Below, piece after piece: positions 39,802 to 47,443 of a stretch of 47,443 bases of DNA. Made by a program: the position numbers and the translations under genes. The notes beneath the pieces are model-generated. The model saw only the letters and a list, made by a program, of their open reading frames with translations, did not search any database and was not told where the DNA came from. How positions within the stretch are numbered: the stretch's first letter is position 1; each line of letters begins with the position of its first letter. The stretch comes from Methanosarcina sp. KYL-1. Its GTDB lineage: Archaea > Halobacteriota > Methanosarcinia > Methanosarcinales > Methanosarcinaceae. The DNA lies in assembly GCF_024372725.1 (NCBI RefSeq), contig NZ_VOUA01000030.1:1-47443 (forward strand), given 5' to 3'.

Positions 39802-40071
39802 CAGGGTCCCTCATGTGAGATTATAAAGTAGGCTTGTGTGATGTGATTGGTTCTATGATGTGATTGATAAGATTGAGAATATCTGTAACCGGTTATGTGT
39901 GTAATCGGCAACTAATACCTTTAATACGTCTATCTTTAATACGTCTATACGTCTGATTGATGCCTGTGAGTGATTTATTTTTGCCCGCCTGCTCATAAAT
40001 AGGCCGAATACCGGAAAATCCGTAGCGTGGTATTATTCCATAACACTTAAATATGAATCGGTTTTCCGGAT

Positions 40072-40108
40072 GTTGCAGTCCTTGTTTAAGTGGATCTTGA
40101 TCTCGAAT
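40072..40108 (-). repeat. Degenerate CRISPR repeat, 32 of 37 matching
   Basis: On the plus strand this 37-base block matches the local consensus (GTTTCAATCCTTGTTTTAGT then GGATCTTGCTCGCGAAT) at 32 positions. It is the outermost of five. The likely crRNA sense is the minus strand, where the consensus ends in ATTGAAAC. Confidence 0.7.
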
Positions 40109-40125
40109 CAACCGGAAGGGCGAAA

Positions 40126-40207
40126 CTGCCGCCCAACGGCTGGCGTTACCGGCAAGGGAGGATTTGGCGGGAAAAACCACCAGACGCCAAATCCGCCGTT
40201 GGGGCAG
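40126..40207. repeat. Long GC-rich stem-loop
   Basis: An inner perfect stem, GGATTTGGCG (40160-40169) with CGCCAAATCC (40185-40194), sits inside an outer stem, CTGCCGCCCAACGG with CCGTTGGGGCAG (40196-40207). It lies just past the ubiA stop and may be a terminator-like RNA structure or a mobile-element end. Confidence 0.55.
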
Positions 40208-40290
40208 AATCCCGAAAGTACGGGCGAATTCCCGCACCTGTCCGTTGCACGCGGTGTTGGGAGGCTTAGAATCAAACTGCCGCCAAACTT

Positions 40291-41142
40291 TCACCTGACC
40301 ATTCGAATGATTATGATAATTAAGAATGCCACCAATCCGCTCAGGTATATCCAGCGGATATAAATTCGCCGATTTGCTATTCTCGAGTCCAGCAATTTAC
40401 TCGTTGAGTACAGAATAACCGCATCCATCAGTAAAATGGGAAACAGATAAATCCACTCTAACCAGCCCAGGAAAAACGGCAAGCTACTTGCAACAATCAC
40501 CAGTAAGAAAATCGCTCCGCTGATTTTCAAGGCGTTTTCGCGACCAAGTACCAGAGCTAAGGAACGGGACCCTGCGAGACGATCGCCTTCAATATCCATA
40601 GCATCTGCCGCAATTTCTTCTCCCAGGTCTACAAGCATTACTATGACCGCAAAAAACCAGACTATGATTTCAAATGGTCTGCCTGCTGCCATACCACCAA
40701 AAACAAAAGTCATGCCTACCGAAAAGCTGACCATCAGATTTCCTATAAAACCAGCCTTTTTGAACCTCCAATTGTAAAGAAAACCCACTGCCCATACTAA
40801 AATAACTATAAGCAAAGCCTCCAGGCTAATCAGGTAGCCTGTGATAAATCCAAGCATTGTCACTACAATGGAGAGCAAAACAACATCCCGCCCGGTAACA
40901 AGCCCTGCCGGGAGCGGCCTTTCCGGGGCGTTTATTCTGTCGATTTCGATATCAAAATAGTCATTCGGGATCAGAGCCGCAGCCGAAATAAAAAAAAAGC
41001 TTAGAAACCCCAGTACAATTTCTGTTGTGGCGGGGAGTTCGCCTAATGCCAGCAATTCCCCTAATATCACGCACACTCCCGCAGCAAATGGCAGTTCAAA
41101 ACGGAATAAGCGAAACAGACCTGGCATTCTTGTTCTGAACAT
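40291..41142 (-). CDS. UbiA-family prenyltransferase (DGGGP synthase-like)
   Basis: A 283-residue membrane enzyme with about nine helices and both Asp-rich motifs, NDYFDIEIDRINAPERPLPAG and DAMDIEGDRLAGSRSLA, which bind prenyl diphosphate through Mg2+. The closest function is digeranylgeranylglyceryl phosphate synthase, which adds the second ether-linked chain of archaeal lipids, but another prenyl acceptor is possible. GAGGAAA lies ten bases before the ATG. The gene occupies the interval between two CRISPR-like repeats. Confidence 0.85.
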   Translation of the reverse strand: MFRTRMPGLFRLFRFELPFAAGVCVILGELLALGELPATTEIVLGFLSFFFISAAALIPNDYFDIEIDRINAPERPLPAGLVTGRDVVLLSIVVTMLGFITGYLISLEALLIVILVWAVGFLYNWRFKKAGFIGNLMVSFSVGMTFVFGGMAAGRPFEIIVWFFAVIVMLVDLGEEIAADAMDIEGDRLAGSRSLALVLGRENALKISGAIFLLVIVASSLPFFLGWLEWIYLFPILLMDAVILYSTSKLLDSRIANRRIYIRWIYLSGLVAFLIIIIIRMVR

Positions 41143-41202
41143 AACAGTATTTCCTCACAATTAACTCAATATTTGCAGCCCAAGTATTGAGTATAACGGA
41201 GT

Positions 41203-41254
41203 GTTTTAATCCTTGTTTTTTTAATCCTTGTTTTAGTGGATTTTGCCCGTGGAC
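41203..41254 (-). repeat. Degenerate CRISPR repeat (30 of 37) plus partial copy
   Basis: The block 41218-41254 matches the local repeat consensus at 30 of 37 positions. It is directly preceded by 41203-41220, which repeats the first 18 bases (GTTTTAATCCTTGTTTTT). The array-like unit separates ubiA (61 bases away) from codB (30 bases away). Confidence 0.7.
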
Positions 41255-41284
41255 CGGATCCCCTCTGTTATTTCCTGGTTGATG

Positions 41285-42559
41285 TTACTGTCGTCTGGAC
41301 ACTTTTTTGTTGCAGCGGAGCTTGAGATAACCTTTCCAGAACCATTCAGCGATCAGGTAGACGGCCATGGAGCAGAGGATGCTGTTTACGGCAGTGATGC
41401 CGGGCAGCAGCCTTGCAGCCAGTACACCGGAGATCCAGGCCGCAACGGCGGTCCCTCTGAGTTTGCTGAACCGGTGCACATCCAGCGTGGCGTAGCTGCG
41501 TTTACGGAGCAGGAAGTAATCGGCAATGATCACTCCCCCGATGGACGGCAGCATGGTATTGAGCAGACTAAGAAAACCAACAAAGTTGTTGTAGAGATAC
41601 ATGGCACTGACAGTACCCACCAGTCCGTTGAACAACACCATATATTTCTTGGGCAGGCGGGTAATGTTGGAGAAGCCCAATCCCGAGGCGTACAGGGCAT
41701 TGTCGTTTGTGGTCCATATATTCATTCCCAGCACGAGCATGGCAGGGATGATCATCCCTTGCCTGAGCATCACATCAGAGATGTCACTTTGCTTATAAAG
41801 TGCAGCACCCACGGCACCGAAGAGGAACATGAGGCTATTTCCCACGAAAAAAGCGATGACGGTGGTCGATACGGAGATGGACGGCTTTTTTGCAAAGCGG
41901 GTAAAGTCAGGGGTAAGGGTCCCGCCACTGATAAATGAAGCCACACAAATCCCAATGGCGGTGGTCATGGCCATGGGGTTATCGGGAGTAAGGGCAAAGA
42001 GCCCTTCCAGCCCCCCGGCAGCCTCCACCCCCCTGGCCACGGAGGCACTCCCCAGCAAAGCTATAGACGGCACAGCAATAAAGCTAAGGGCGGTGAGGGC
42101 CCGGATCCCAAACCAGGCGGTAAATGTCATAAGCAGTCCGGCCGCCCCTATGAGCATATAGATATTGTCGCCGGTAACCCTCTGTACCGGCAGGGCAAAC
42201 ATGGCCACTCCCACACCGAACCATCCCACCTGTGTGATACTCAAAAGGAAAGAAGGCAGGTATGACCCTATCTCCCCAAAAGAGTATCGAGTGAGCAGGT
42301 GAGTGGACAGCCCCGTACGTCCGGCAATATAAGCCAGCAGACCGGTATATACTCCCAGTATCAGGTTCCCTGCCAGTACGGCGACGATAAAGTCCCGGAC
42401 GGTAAGGCCCATTCCCAGTGTCCCTCCCGACCACATACTGGCGGAAAAGAAGGTGAAACCCAGCATCACCACCAGCATGGACCAGAAAGGTTTCTTGTGG
42501 GAAGGGGCTACATGTTCCAGGGAGAAATCGGTGTCAGGAGTAGAATTTTGTTTCGTCAT
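41285..42559 (-). CDS. codB: Cytosine permease-like NCS1 transporter (CodB)
   Basis: A 424-residue, roughly 12-helix transporter of the NCS1 family, close in length and pattern to E. coli CodB, which imports cytosine. Typical stretches are FSLEHVAPSHKKPFWSMLVVMLGFTFF, SYLPSFLLSITQVGWFGVGVAMFA and LGMNIWTTNDNALYASGLG. No cytosine deaminase is in the window. It has a bacterial look for a methanogen and sits between two CRISPR-like repeats with only 30 and 21 bases to spare. Confidence 0.87.
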   Translation of the reverse strand: MTKQNSTPDTDFSLEHVAPSHKKPFWSMLVVMLGFTFFSASMWSGGTLGMGLTVRDFIVAVLAGNLILGVYTGLLAYIAGRTGLSTHLLTRYSFGEIGSYLPSFLLSITQVGWFGVGVAMFALPVQRVTGDNIYMLIGAAGLLMTFTAWFGIRALTALSFIAVPSIALLGSASVARGVEAAGGLEGLFALTPDNPMAMTTAIGICVASFISGGTLTPDFTRFAKKPSISVSTTVIAFFVGNSLMFLFGAVGAALYKQSDISDVMLRQGMIIPAMLVLGMNIWTTNDNALYASGLGFSNITRLPKKYMVLFNGLVGTVSAMYLYNNFVGFLSLLNTMLPSIGGVIIADYFLLRKRSYATLDVHRFSKLRGTAVAAWISGVLAARLLPGITAVNSILCSMAVYLIAEWFWKGYLKLRCNKKVSRRQ

Positions 42560-42580
42560 GTTTTTCCATTTTGCTTTTGT

Positions 42581-42617
42581 GTTTCAATCCTTGTTTTAGT
42601 GAATCATGCAATAGTTT
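42581..42617 (-). repeat. Degenerate CRISPR repeat, first 21 bases exact
   Basis: The first 21 bases match the local consensus perfectly and the rest decays (29 of 37 overall). It lies 21 bases upstream of the codB start. Confidence 0.72.
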
Positions 42618-42777
42618 CTATATAGATTTTTAAATTGAGGAATACACAGTTTTTATCTATAGTTCTATTCGGCAAATATCTGATAAATAGCAAAACAACC
42701 TGAGAACAAAAACATGTTGAATAACTTTTTATATTTTCTCGACATCACATGCCATACTATTGAAAGGGGTTCATACT

Positions 42778-43071
42778 GTGACAACGAGACGTATTACTAA
42801 AATCGGTGTGTTATCACTTGGAAAAACCTTTGGAGCGATTTACGCAATAATGGGCTTTATATTCGGAGCTATAATGACTCTCATGTCCCTGGGAATGGGT
42901 TCTTTGATGGGAAACGAGGGAGCGTTAGCAGGCCTGCTGTTCGGGGTCGGAGCCATCATAACAGTACCCATCTTCTACGGAATTTTAGGTTTCATTGGCG
43001 GTATAATCACAGCGTTGATATATAATGTAGCAGCCGGATTCATTGGTGGCCTGGAAATAGAAGTGGAATAA
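42778..43071 (+). CDS. Small membrane protein of unknown function
   Basis: A 97-residue protein with two or three hydrophobic, glycine-rich helices (GKTFGAIYAIMGFIFGAIMTLMSLG and later FGVGAIITVPIFYGILGFIGGII) and an acidic end. I do not recognise a named family. I start at GTG 42778, nine bases after GAAAGGGG, giving MTTRRITKIG with a basic N-terminus; the frame opens back to 42760. It is the only plus-strand gene in this stretch and lies between two CRISPR-like repeats, its stop nine bases before the second. Confidence 0.65.
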   Translation: MTTRRITKIGVLSLGKTFGAIYAIMGFIFGAIMTLMSLGMGSLMGNEGALAGLLFGVGAIITVPIFYGILGFIGGIITALIYNVAAGFIGGLEIEVE

Positions 43072-43080
43072 ACCAATAAA

Positions 43081-43191
43081 GTTTAAATCCCTGTTTTTAC
43101 GGACCTTACCCGCGAATAGCTTTGCTTGGAGATTTAAGGGAACCTTTTACCCTTGTTTCAATCCTTGCTTTAGTGGATCTTGCTCGCGAAT
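43081..43191 (-). CRISPR. Minimal CRISPR array: repeat-spacer-repeat
   Basis: Two 37-base repeats (43081-43117, 29 of 37 to the local consensus; 43155-43191, 36 of 37) enclose a spacer of exactly 37 bases (43118-43154). The consensus GTTTCAATCC... read on the minus strand ends ATTGAAAC, the usual 8-base crRNA handle, so the array runs in the same direction as the cas genes. cas3 ends only 23 bases away and there is no room for a leader. It is probably the stub of a larger array. Confidence 0.78.
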
Positions 43192-43214: not shown

Positions 43215-45434
43215 CTAGTTAAAAATACCTAAAAGAGACTCCCCTGAATCCAATAAGAGACCTAGTTCAGAACTGTAATCAACACTCGCAAATATCATAT
43301 CGGAATCAATTTCTATCTGGTTGTTATGGATTAGTTTTTTGTATTGACCGATACTTATCGAAACAACATATTTCATAGCTTCAAAATATCTTTTATTTTC
43401 AATTTCCTCGAGATATTCGAGTTTAAACTGGGTTGGAACAACTTCAACAGATTGATACAGGTTATAAAACTCTTCCTGATTTTCTTTTTCATTCATGAAA
43501 GGAAAAATTTTGCTATGAAACTTTGGAAAGGTTTTTTTAACCATCTCTAAAGAAGCCAGATCAGAACCCTGATATCCATTTGAATAAACTTCGTCTACAA
43601 GTTTTTGAATTCTGCTTTCTCCTAGAATACTCTCTTTACTTAACAGTTCAAGACTCTTAGAGACTAACTCCTGGTTTTTGTAAACATATGTGTCTTTTTC
43701 AGACCCTTGTTCAAAAACATACACAGGCTTGATTATTTTTGCTTCCCATCCTTTTCGGTTAATCCTTCCAAACCGCTGGACGAGGGCATCGATAGGAGCT
43801 GGCTCAGAGAAGAGTACATCATAATCAATATCAAGAGAAACCTCAATTGCCTGTGTGCCAACTAGAAGGTTCAGATTCTTTAACTTGGCCTCAATTTCTT
43901 CTCTGTCTCTGAGGATAAATCTTCCATGAATTAATCCCGAATTATCTACTTCTTGAGATAGCAGTTTATATACATTCTGAGCCTGAGCTACGGTGTTACA
44001 AACGACAAGCACCTTTCTGTTATCATCGATTTCTTTTTGAATAAGATCCAAATTGTCTAAGATGCCCCCTTTAAGAACATAAACCCTGTGTCTTGTAAAC
44101 TCATTCAGTTCAAGTTCTGTAAAAGAGATTTCTGTTGTTATTCCCAGTTCCTGCTTGAACATTTCTTTAAGAAAAGAAGGGAGAGTGGCGGACATAATCA
44201 AAAAATTGGCTTGATAACCTTTCAAGATTTTCAATGTTTCAAGGATGAGAGCAGTTGTATGAGAATCATAAGCGTGAATTTCGTCCATTATGAAAAGAGC
44301 ATTGGACATTTCTGCAAGATTCTGTTCAAAACCTCGAATTCCAAACATTGATTTAAGAATCTGATGGGGAGTCGCTATTTTATAAGGTCTATAAATTTTA
44401 TCAGTGAGGTTTTTTACTTGTTTTGCTTTTTTAGTTGCAATCAGGTAATCTTCTTCATCCTCAAAGCTTCGGTACAGATAGTACATAGCTTTTCCATGTT
44501 GGATACCAGTCAATTCAGAGTCTTTAAAGTCCCTTTGAAGTCGTTTATACATTGCATTTATACTGGCAGTGTAGGGAAGCAGGTAAAAGACCCTTTTATA
44601 CTTGCCAGGATTCTGATTTGCATGACTCCAGAACAATGAAGCTTCTGTTTTCCCACTTCCAGTAGGTGCTATTAAAAAGGCATCACCTTTTGTTTCGGAT
44701 GCTTGACTCTGCGTTTTTCTCAGTTCGGAAAAGTTATATACAGCTCTCATGTCTTCAATTCCACATAACAAGCCGTATTTGCCCCCCGATGCAAGGTGAT
44801 CGCAGGCTGTTAAAAATCCTTTTAGGAATATCCCATACTTACCATGTAAACTTGTTAATTCATCATTTTCAAGCTGGTTTTTATAAGGTAGTACGGCACT
44901 TTTATAAGAATCAACCATTTCCTCTATTGACCCTATTTCTCTAAATTTATTTAATTCAAAACCCAGATACTTTTTGCTGATTTCTGGAATTTTTCGTTGA
45001 ATCTCCTTTAATTCTTCAAAGTTAGGAGTTAGTTCCTGTAGCTTTTCAAAATACCGTTTTTTGCCAACAGGACTTGGGTAAGTCTGATACATTTCCCGTA
45101 AATAAGACAAATCTTTGTGATGTGTAATTATTGCCATGGCAATGGCTTCTTTAGAGAAGTCTTCGTACTCAAGCCCAGAAACAAAACCTGCAGAGAGAAT
45201 TTCATGTCTGTACTTCCAGTTCTCCTTTCCAGAAAGAGCTTTTTGAAATCCTGATGCGGCTTTCCCAAAGTCATGGAAAAAAATAGAGTAGAAGAGATGA
45301 TCCCAGAAGTCCGGAACTCCGCAGACCTGGGGAACTTCAGGGTACGCATCTTTTATGCTTTTGAAGACCATAAGGGCTTTTTCTGTATGTTCCAGCAGAG
45401 TTTCATCAGGATCTTTTTTTGCAAGAATTACCAT
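43215..45434 (-). CDS. cas3: CRISPR-associated helicase/nuclease Cas3
   Basis: A 739-residue Cas3 that unwinds and cuts target DNA after Cascade binding. The N-terminal HD nuclease has LLEHTEKAL, FFHDFGKAASGF (His54-Asp55), HEILS and ITHHKD. The SF2 helicase has Walker A APTGSGKTEA, the DExH box IMDEIHAYD, MSATLP, VGTQAIEVSLDID and the arginine-finger motif QRFGRINRKG. All look intact. It follows cas5 by 21 bases and is the last gene of the operon in this window. A reduced CRISPR array follows. Confidence 0.94.
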   Translation of the reverse strand: MVILAKKDPDETLLEHTEKALMVFKSIKDAYPEVPQVCGVPDFWDHLFYSIFFHDFGKAASGFQKALSGKENWKYRHEILSAGFVSGLEYEDFSKEAIAMAIITHHKDLSYLREMYQTYPSPVGKKRYFEKLQELTPNFEELKEIQRKIPEISKKYLGFELNKFREIGSIEEMVDSYKSAVLPYKNQLENDELTSLHGKYGIFLKGFLTACDHLASGGKYGLLCGIEDMRAVYNFSELRKTQSQASETKGDAFLIAPTGSGKTEASLFWSHANQNPGKYKRVFYLLPYTASINAMYKRLQRDFKDSELTGIQHGKAMYYLYRSFEDEEDYLIATKKAKQVKNLTDKIYRPYKIATPHQILKSMFGIRGFEQNLAEMSNALFIMDEIHAYDSHTTALILETLKILKGYQANFLIMSATLPSFLKEMFKQELGITTEISFTELELNEFTRHRVYVLKGGILDNLDLIQKEIDDNRKVLVVCNTVAQAQNVYKLLSQEVDNSGLIHGRFILRDREEIEAKLKNLNLLVGTQAIEVSLDIDYDVLFSEPAPIDALVQRFGRINRKGWEAKIIKPVYVFEQGSEKDTYVYKNQELVSKSLELLSKESILGESRIQKLVDEVYSNGYQGSDLASLEMVKKTFPKFHSKIFPFMNEKENQEEFYNLYQSVEVVPTQFKLEYLEEIENKRYFEAMKYVVSISIGQYKKLIHNNQIEIDSDMIFASVDYSSELGLLLDSGESLLGIFN

Positions 45435-45455: not shown

Positions 45456-46079
45456 TCAATTCTCGTGAAGCCAGACTGCCCAATTCATTTCCGGATCAAA
45501 TAAACACTTTTCAGGATAGGTGAAGAACTCGTCCATCAGAAGATATGGTTTTACCCCTACAGCTTTTCGGGGAATGGTATCAGTAAAGTGACTTGGAAGT
45601 GCCTGCACAAGACCATATGCACCTTTAATTCCAAAAGGAAGGATAGTTTTACCCAACCTCTTTCCAGCCTCTTCTTCAAGATTCAGTCCCTTTGTTTCTG
45701 AAACTTTTGCCAGATCTCCAGATCTTCCAAAAAGAAGGGGATAATGAGGTTTACGGAAATATTCCTCAAAATCGGGCTTGTCAAGATATAGGTAAAGTTT
45801 GGGATTATACAGGAACTCTCTTTTCACGACATTTGATTTTGCAGAAAGTCCTGGACTTAATTCGTAGATTGTTTCAAGGTCTACAGCTTTACTTTCAAAT
45901 TCAAATACGTAACCAATATTTACATCATCAGGAGTAGTTAACTCTCCTCTTGCTGCTGAAATCAACCCATACACAGTACTTACAGGAGGAACTGGAAGAG
46001 TGGGCTGGAATCCGCTTATAAAGCTAGGATACCTGAAAGATGCGGTCCAGCCCTCAATTTTGACCCTTAAGACTTTCAT
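45456..46079 (-). CDS. cas5: CRISPR-associated protein Cas5 (type I-B, Cas5t-like)
   Basis: A 207-residue RAMP protein of Cascade that holds the 5' handle of the crRNA. The N-terminus (VKIEGWTASFRYPSFISGFQPTLPVPPVSTVYGLISAARGE) is the Cas5 pattern, here of the Cas5t branch. A glycine-rich segment near the middle (PLLFGRSGDLAK) and PFGIKGAYGLVQALP follow. It starts one base after the cas7 stop, so the two are translated together. Confidence 0.88.
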   Translation of the reverse strand: MKVLRVKIEGWTASFRYPSFISGFQPTLPVPPVSTVYGLISAARGELTTPDDVNIGYVFEFESKAVDLETIYELSPGLSAKSNVVKREFLYNPKLYLYLDKPDFEEYFRKPHYPLLFGRSGDLAKVSETKGLNLEEEAGKRLGKTILPFGIKGAYGLVQALPSHFTDTIPRKAVGVKPYLLMDEFFTYPEKCLFDPEMNWAVWLHEN

Positions 46080-46080
46080 C

Positions 46081-47082
46081 TTACCTCATCAGCCCGGGAA
46101 TCGTTTGCACAAAAGAATCAACTATTTCGTTTATAGAGCCATAGATTACTTTCCGACTGTTGCCTGCATATTTTTCAGTTAGAGCTTTAAGTGCAGGATC
46201 GAGCTCTTCCATGAAACCTTTACGTCTTCCGATATAGATATCAGTCAACAGGATATCAGAATAATCAGAAATCACGTCTTCAAGAGCTTCCATGTCTACA
46301 AGGGCTTCCCCATTTTCTTCTCTGACAAGATTCATAAATAGGTGATTCCCACCGTCTATCCCTGCGAGTATGAGAAGTTTTGGGGAGACATCAGTGAGGT
46401 GGGACGTTTGTTTTGCACCGCCTGTAAGATATGGAAGAGCTTTTAACACATCTTTTGCTCTCCCTATTCTGACTTCGGCAGGCATTACCCACTTACTTTC
46501 GATCTTTTCAGCCCCATTTTTTTCTGCAATTGCTTCGAGTTCAGAATACATATTTTTATATCCTGTTTTCTCGCTCTTGTAAAATACACCGATATTGTCC
46601 AGGTCAAGGGAAAAGATTCCTTTCAAAACCGTGGAATAAAATTCGTGCTCATAAGGAACGGGGTCACCTTCATGGCGTGCCATCACTCCGAAATCTTCTG
46701 TAGGAACTTGGCCTGCAACAGAAACAAGAGGAGAATTCTTCAGAACTGATAGCCTTGTGACAGTGCCACCGTCTGCTTTTTTGAGAGCTCTCATATATCC
46801 GAACACATCATCATCATCGTATTCAACAGGATTAGCACTTGTAAATGCTATTTTCTTCTCGCGCTCTATAGGGGAGATTTTCCAATTGAATTTTTCTTCC
46901 AGAGTAGAGCGCCACCAGTACCTGAGAGCCTGACCCGAAACATAGGGGTACACTTTCCTTCCTTTTCTGATCGCCTTCACTCTGACAACATTTTCTGTCC
47001 TTTCACTGCTGTCATTTCCTGCATTGTTAAGTGCTGAATGAGGAGCATCGATAAGCATGAAACCATTTACTGTACGTGTCAC
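46081..47082 (-). CDS. cas7: CRISPR-associated protein Cas7 (Cst2/DevR family)
   Basis: A 333-residue Cas7 backbone protein of type I-B Cascade, DevR/Cst2 type. It should coat the crRNA spacer in several copies. Family features are the early NGFMLIDAPHSALNNAG, VSGQALRYWWRSTL and the late glycine-containing VMPAEVRIGRAKDVLKALPYLTGGAKQTSHLTD. The start is GTG 47082, four to eight bases after GGAGGAATAAATT, where the preceding gene also ends. Gene order cas7-cas5-cas3 is that of the Cst (TNEAP) subtype. Confidence 0.88.
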   Translation of the reverse strand: MTRTVNGFMLIDAPHSALNNAGNDSSERTENVVRVKAIRKGRKVYPYVSGQALRYWWRSTLEEKFNWKISPIEREKKIAFTSANPVEYDDDDVFGYMRALKKADGGTVTRLSVLKNSPLVSVAGQVPTEDFGVMARHEGDPVPYEHEFYSTVLKGIFSLDLDNIGVFYKSEKTGYKNMYSELEAIAEKNGAEKIESKWVMPAEVRIGRAKDVLKALPYLTGGAKQTSHLTDVSPKLLILAGIDGGNHLFMNLVREENGEALVDMEALEDVISDYSDILLTDIYIGRRKGFMEELDPALKALTEKYAGNSRKVIYGSINEIVDSFVQTIPGLMR

Positions 47083-47085
47083 AAT

Positions 47086-47419
47086 TTATTCCTCCATAGA
47101 GATTTCCGTTTCTTCATCCTCGTTAACAAGTTGAGATTTCAAAGCATCCTGTTCAACCAGCCAGTTGTGCAGGTTTTCGTAAATTCTGAAAAGTAAAAGG
47201 TCCTGAGTCTCTTTCCAGCCTATATTCCCTTCAGGGAAGAGGTCTTCCATAAACTCTTCAAGGGTAAATATAGAGCCTTGAGAACCTCTTTTAATTCTGT
47301 CTTTTTCGATCAGCCTAAGTACAGTACTTCGCTAAAAATCTCTCCTCCATGTCTCCTCTCCATTCATTTACCTCAAACACTCCACCATTAACCTGACCTT
47401 TAACTTTCTTCTCAGCCAT
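47086..47419 (-). pseudogene. Frameshifted small gene upstream of cas7, cas8 region
   Basis: Two overlapping frames seem to make one protein. Frame one runs from ATG 47419 (MAEKKVKGQVNGGVFEVNEW) to RFLAKYCT and a TAG at 47315. Frame two runs from about 47331 (STVLRLIEKDRIKRGSQGSI) through LLLFRIYENLHNWLVEQDAL to the stop at 47086, just before cas7. Joining them needs one frameshift near 47320. The position is that of the end of cas8/cst1 or of a small subunit; I cannot assign it. A stop (TGA) two codons before the ATG, in the same frame, suggests a separate gene follows outside the window. Confidence 0.45.
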
Positions 47420-47443
47420 TCCTCAATGAGAAGTATAAACATA

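Follow-up and report, generated by a model that had tools for sequence, protein, structure and literature searches.

The 47,443 nucleotides of Methanosarcina sp. KYL-1 DNA analysed here, referred to as the window, raise the question of how single, unrelated genes came to lie between CRISPR repeats beside a cas operon. An earlier note on this DNA had offered gene-sized inserts at the spacer positions of an old array, gene cassettes using CRISPR repeats as recombination sites, and simple array decay with later insertions. The locus was compared, by DNA search and reading of loci, with 30 other Methanosarcina genomes, giving 31 genomes with the window's own.

Repeats, genes and cas operon in the window

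The features of the locus are as follows.

40014-40070, strand not applicable: conserved argH upstream element, ending where the zone begins
40072-40108, +: CRISPR repeat 1 (32/37), bounding the zone and the ubiA unit on the left; G007 and G015 carry an orthologous repeat in this place
40291-41142, -: ubiA-family prenyltransferase (cargo 1), Pfam UbiA; repeat-bounded in several relatives
41218-41254, +: CRISPR repeat 2 (30/37), right edge of the ubiA unit; a partial repeat is fused in front from 41203
41285-42559, -: codB-like cytosine permease (cargo 2), NCBIfam cytosine permease above cut-off; nearest proteins from Bacteroidota
42581-42617, +: CRISPR repeat 3 (29/37), first 29 bases intact, end replaced
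42760-43071, +: small membrane protein (cargo 3), no family match
43081-43117, +: CRISPR repeat 4 (29/37), from consensus scoring and the genome profile search
43118-43154, strand not applicable: spacer-like segment, 37 bp
43155-43191, +: CRISPR repeat 5 (36/37), from consensus scoring and the Rfam model
43215-45434, -: cas3 (I-B), of an operon paired with 30-nt repeats in relatives
45456-46079, -: cas5b
46081-47082, -: cas7 (Cst2/DevR type, I-B)
47086-47316, -: cas8b C-terminal fragment; homology to relatives ends at about 47316
47316-47443, strand not applicable: probable insertion-sequence end, 128 bp, common to the end of contig C11 (99%)

On rescoring, the five 37-bp blocks were recovered at the positions, with the scores and in the one orientation that the earlier note had given them (32, 30, 29, 29, and 36 of 37 positions matching the consensus at 40072, 41218, 42581, 43081, and 43155, respectively, all +). 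The next-best match in a scan of the whole window, 23/37 at 41203, is a partial duplication joined to the 41218 repeat. Four of the five repeats were matched on the minus strand by the Rfam model CRISPR-DR7 (RF01320), two of them above the curated cut-off. The five blocks are real CRISPR repeats of array origin. Regular repeat-spacer spacing is absent in the window, where a single normal spacer is left (43118-43154, as previously described), and the locus is therefore an array remnant rather than an active array.

A genome-wide profile search yielded 12 clear repeat matches in 4.04 Mb, with five in the window and the other seven on contigs C11 (three, close to its end), C2 (two, at a single site), C3 (one), and C19 (one). 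The few lone copies on C2, C3, and C19 might be taken as a sign of an intergenic element scattered through the genome and independent of any array. However, there are only 12 copies in the genome, the lone copies on C2 and C3 sit in sequence related to the array-trailer surroundings of relatives, the C19 copy belongs to the left end of the same ancestral zone, and the Rfam CRISPR model matches the repeats. The genome-wide counts rule out a common dispersed sequence, and this reading retains scarcely any probability.

At the end of contig C11 (L076:9464-10248 in G000, the window's genome), one 30-nt-type repeat precedes three of the 37-nt type, which are spaced at 340 and 347 bp; these two inter-repeat intervals were compared and are not copies of one another.

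The first three intervals of the window hold ubiA, codB, and the small membrane protein gene, one each, as the earlier note had stated, and the distances to the left and right repeats, reported there as 9 to 182 bp, are 182/75 bp for ubiA, 30/21 bp for codB, and 142/9 bp for the small membrane protein gene. The order ubiA, codB, small gene, with the repeats missing between them, was not seen in any relative examined. The small membrane protein has two homologous copies in G001, where a repeat likewise lies at the same downstream distance. For codB, the nearest proteins were from Puteibacter (72%) and a Prolixibacteraceae strain (70%), and no DNA match was found in the 30 other Methanosarcina genomes by a scan that detects close relatives only. 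Because of this affinity to Bacteroidota and the lack of a match within the genus, the window codB looks bacterial and was probably acquired across domains. Its DNA resembles that of the relatives found at about 67%, and within the gene only, so that the insert ends are not comparable.

The cas operon does adjoin the repeats; its affiliation in relatives, however, lies with a CRISPR system of another repeat length. In the window genome, G001, G005, and G011, the cas3-cas5-cas7-cas8b genes of a different I-B system stand closely after the last 37-nt repeat, and in G005, G001, and G011 this operon carries its own 30-nt-repeat array on its far side. In other relatives, the 37-nt arrays go with cas4-cas2-cas1. 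The operon is probably not the partner of the window repeats, since it goes with 30-nt repeats in relatives. At the contig end, cas8b is probably interrupted by an insertion sequence, which would break the operon.

The gene-bearing zone in other Methanosarcina genomes

The observation is real and holds beyond the single locus at which it was made. In many of the genomes, 3-26 kb of genes split by single decayed repeats lie at the leader-distal end of a 37-nt-repeat array, and ubiA, where found in relatives, is usually inside such a zone of isolated, decayed repeat copies in the same orientation. The zone adjoins either a full array (72 repeats in G023, 65 in G030, and 121 in G003) or the remains of one, and the native order is zone, array, leader, cas4, cas2, cas1 (G023, G030, G003, and G021). 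Because the conserved leader, AGGGCAAAA...TTTATAAATAC, sits at the opposite end of the array, the zone is the leader-distal, oldest end. The repeats are co-oriented in every zone examined, and their score is lower the farther they lie from the array (Spearman rho -0.50, p 3e-5, n=63). Features expected of a trailer remnant were found here: co-oriented repeats from a known CRISPR family, intact leader-bearing arrays in relatives, and a leader-distal position. The idea of gene-sized inserts in an old array is borne out as far as the shared orientation, the decay with distance, and the leader-distal position of the zone are concerned.

The 60 inter-repeat intervals of 150-4500 bp hold cargo of 51 families. 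One gene per interval, as in the window, is the commonest state in the genus (29 intervals) and is not a rule: 12 intervals hold two genes, nine at least three, and ten none. The cargo families scanned include a Fic/Doc toxin-like protein with an antitoxin-like partner, an RNB-domain ribonuclease, a methyltransferase, an acetyltransferase, a cupin, a capsule-type protein, an acyltransferase, and one transposase. No dedicated site-specific recombinase gene was found among the cargo families read or scanned, the lone DDE transposase occurring in G012 only. A strand bias of the cargo toward array transcription was considered and rejected, as the 37 of 51 families concerned are not significantly above flanking genes (p 0.2).

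Some individual arrays deserve mention. In G012, the DDE transposase gene lies between perfect repeats of an intact array (L033:13355-14652), apparently as a recent insertion. A Fic/Doc toxin-like gene and its antitoxin-like partner lie between two near-perfect repeats at L037:9461-10266, and Fic/Doc-type pairs homologous to this pair adjoin the array in G004, G030, G012, and G021. Beside the DR7-type array of G008 stands another whose repeat is a variant (GTTTCAATCCTTGTTTTGCTGGAAGCTGTTTTTCAA; L057:16619-18543). Many arrays in the genus are without a gene-bearing zone.

Homology ends, changing neighbours and transfer

Homologous segments of the zones end at repeats far more often than expected by chance, an excess that the earlier note had proposed to look for. 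All repeats were masked in this comparison, since unmasked repeats could draw alignments toward themselves. The unique ends of homology blocks in noncoding zone DNA (n=171) were scored as lying at a repeat if one started no more than 15 bp outside, and the null distribution was obtained by random re-placement of the repeats in 2000 trials. Ends at repeats numbered 34 of 171, compared to 7.4±2.5 expected and a maximum of 18 in the 2000 trials; the independent events are fewer than 34, as some ends are orthologous between genomes, with an estimate of about 16 junction classes. This masked version replaces an earlier unmasked one (45/159 versus 12.5% expected).

For the methyltransferase unit, present in two of the 31 genomes and as a remnant of about 130 bp in G002, the alignment of G030 with G001 runs from the left repeat to the right repeat, with nothing outside.

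For the ubiA unit, the window, G023, G012, and G002 share the right flank as far as the repeat, past which four unrelated sequences follow. On the left, the window, G007, and G015 each have the flank starting at the repeat and a left neighbour of their own. In G023 and G012, this left flank lacks about 80 bp, and the join to the repeat is at letters resembling the repeat's own end in G007 and G015.

For the RNB ribonuclease unit, found in 11 of the 31 genomes, the same right-junction repeat is present in nine, and the sequences beyond it are nine mutually unrelated ones. At its left junction, seven genomes carry a repeat at the same place, mostly truncated. Likewise, the repeat pair beside a 211-aa gene is followed by the methyltransferase in G030, the toxin pair in G005, and the ribonuclease in G003, and the order of the Fic/Doc pair and the acetyltransferase is reversed between G005 and G030. 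Single genes between shared recombination sites, in units whose neighbours vary, as known from integron-type arrays, are therefore what these loci present.

Fused repeats were seen at 41203 in the window and in G025, and some junctions carry truncated ones; both are more readily explained by imprecise or microhomology-mediated joining than by a precise enzyme. These junctions bear on the possibility that an enzyme, either the Cas1-Cas2 adaptation complex capturing pieces of gene size or another recombinase, inserts genes at the repeats in an integron-like manner. The coincidence of unit edges with repeat edges and the presence of cas1, cas2, and cas4 next to the leader in the native locus agree with such a directed system, as does a 2-kb pseudo-spacer of Sulfolobus islandicus that lies exactly between repeats and for which faulty Cas processing is one proposed cause (PMC3718332). 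However, the gene-rich zone is farthest from the leader, where adaptation acts, some junction repeats are truncated or fused, the zone has no recombinase gene that recurs consistently, and many Methanosarcina arrays have no such zone. We regard a directed system as very improbable. Of the cassette idea, the part that stands is that units are bounded and re-joined at repeats, whereas a dedicated system is not supported, no recombinase gene having been found among the cargo families read or scanned.

Two units show excess similarity between certain species when set against core genes. In the methyltransferase gene, identity at fourfold sites between G030 and G001 is 82%, compared to 52% in three core genes, which serve as the control (p 4e-8), and 48% in the cupin of the same region (p 4e-5). 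For ubiA, the values are 85% between the window and G023 (core 58%) and 79% between the window and G012 (core 55%), and equal those of the core genes within the group of G003, G005, G015, and G030. These identities suggest that the methyltransferase and ubiA units, the two on which the case for transfer rests, were likely exchanged laterally between species. For most other cargo, vertical descent and loss suffice.

The simplest account of the zones would be random insertions into an old array, inherited vertically with the repeats as passive relics, so that neighbours differ through loss or divergence. The trailer position of the zone and the decay gradient of its repeats agree with this account, as do the broadly conserved cargo order in several relatives and the transposase gene within the intact G012 array. 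However, an excess of homology ends at repeats is not foreseen by this account and partly refutes it; nor does it foresee nine different neighbours past one RNB ribonuclease repeat, or methyltransferase and ubiA units that are unduly similar in distant species. Decay with later insertions thus describes the position and the gradient and fails, when taken alone, for the repeat-bounded homology and the exchanged units; we consider it unlikely.

We think it probable that the zone is the fossil end of an array that collects gene inserts, where recombination between repeats deletes units, joins them anew, and occasionally transfers them. The zone represents the oldest, leader-distal end of a 37-nt-repeat CRISPR array. 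As spacers are added at the leader, DNA landing in the array would drift outward while the repeats decay, and genes lying in the zone, bacterial and toxin-antitoxin genes among them, would persist. Recombination between the direct repeats would remove spacers and entire inter-repeat segments and bring genes next to new neighbours, and a repeat-gene-repeat piece may occasionally enter another genome via that genome's own repeats. The agent is presumably the ordinary homologous or microhomology-mediated recombination of the cell.

Several points count against this fossil-end explanation, beyond the orthology of some block ends, the reliance of transfer on two units, and the three-gene core control given above. 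The cargo order is largely conserved, and vertical descent with repeat-mediated loss covers many cases without transfer. Recombining direct repeats should also yield some tandem duplications, and none of inter-repeat segments was found when they were sought as direct proof of unequal crossing-over. A stronger proposal, that Methanosarcina CRISPR trailers serve as a standing platform for gene exchange, with repeat-directed movement between species, possibly aided by adaptation, and retention of useful cargo, appears to us quite doubtful.

Related systems and the division of the locus

Recombination between CRISPR repeats deletes spacers by removing the DNA between two direct repeats. Such deletion normally hits short spacers, whereas in Methanosarcina it seemingly affects kilobase gene segments, at times between genomes. 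Reviews of array dynamics are available (PMC8047081, PMC11472070). In integrons, gene cassettes form a row of single genes between recombination sites, and the units are exchanged between genomes. The Methanosarcina zone resembles such a cassette array in its row of single, site-bounded, exchanged genes and differs in having no integrase and decayed sites; attC sites, excision, and promoter-driven expression are features of integrons.

The precedent closest to these zones comes from CRISPR_2 of Sulfolobus islandicus LAL14/1, where the SiL-E1 pseudo-spacer, some 2 kb long and carrying genes, lies exactly between two repeats; faulty spacer processing or homologous recombination was proposed for it (PMC3718332). 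Both cases concern gene-bearing inserts between the CRISPR repeats of an archaeal array, and the edges of SiL-E1 leave no unexplained bases. SiL-E1 is, however, one insert from a known plasmid between perfect repeats in one strain, whereas the Methanosarcina zones comprise serial units over up to about 26 kb with decayed repeats in many genomes; their genes are mostly of chromosomal type, and shared units occur whose neighbours have changed. Viruses and proviruses carry solitary repeat units, which lie outside arrays as lone CRISPR repeats and have been proposed to recombine with resident arrays (PMC8616872). Their proposed role is in anti-CRISPR or integration, whereas the Methanosarcina copies are remnants of the cell's own array. 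In the CRISPR regions of Sulfolobales, toxin-antitoxin pairs are found among the CRISPR-associated genes, in cas gene cassettes and variable regions (PMC4390879); there, unlike in Methanosarcina, array repeats are not described as enclosing single units. The open-access literature searched yielded no description of genes lying serially between repeats.

If the fossil-end explanation is true, the influence of CRISPR arrays on genomes goes beyond immunity, and the ends that they abandon act as landing and exchange sites in which recombination at the repeats sets the limits of genes. The zone would then be a layered record of gene capture beside an immune locus and would offer a testable route by which genes pass between archaeal species and, in one case, apparently came from bacteria. 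It would also account for lone CRISPR repeats next to ordinary genes.

The window contains neither the native array nor its leader, and a different I-B operon abuts the last repeat. At the other edge, similarity of most relatives to the argH upstream element stops at 40064-40074, argH lying elsewhere in those genomes, and position 40072 is the first of the zone. Contig C19 (L079:4203-5583) now carries the left end of the ancestral zone, with its permease, acyltransferase gene, and repeat, apart from the window part. Since the similarity to the argH element ends at the zone start and the left end of the zone is on C19, the locus was probably split by a rearrangement, with a breakpoint on the window contig that coincides with a CRISPR repeat. 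The reciprocal half of this rearrangement was sought and not found, as the sequence upstream of argH differs between relatives; the element itself, about 210-270 bp 5' of argH, is kept in most Methanosarcina genomes and is possibly a promoter or regulatory site.
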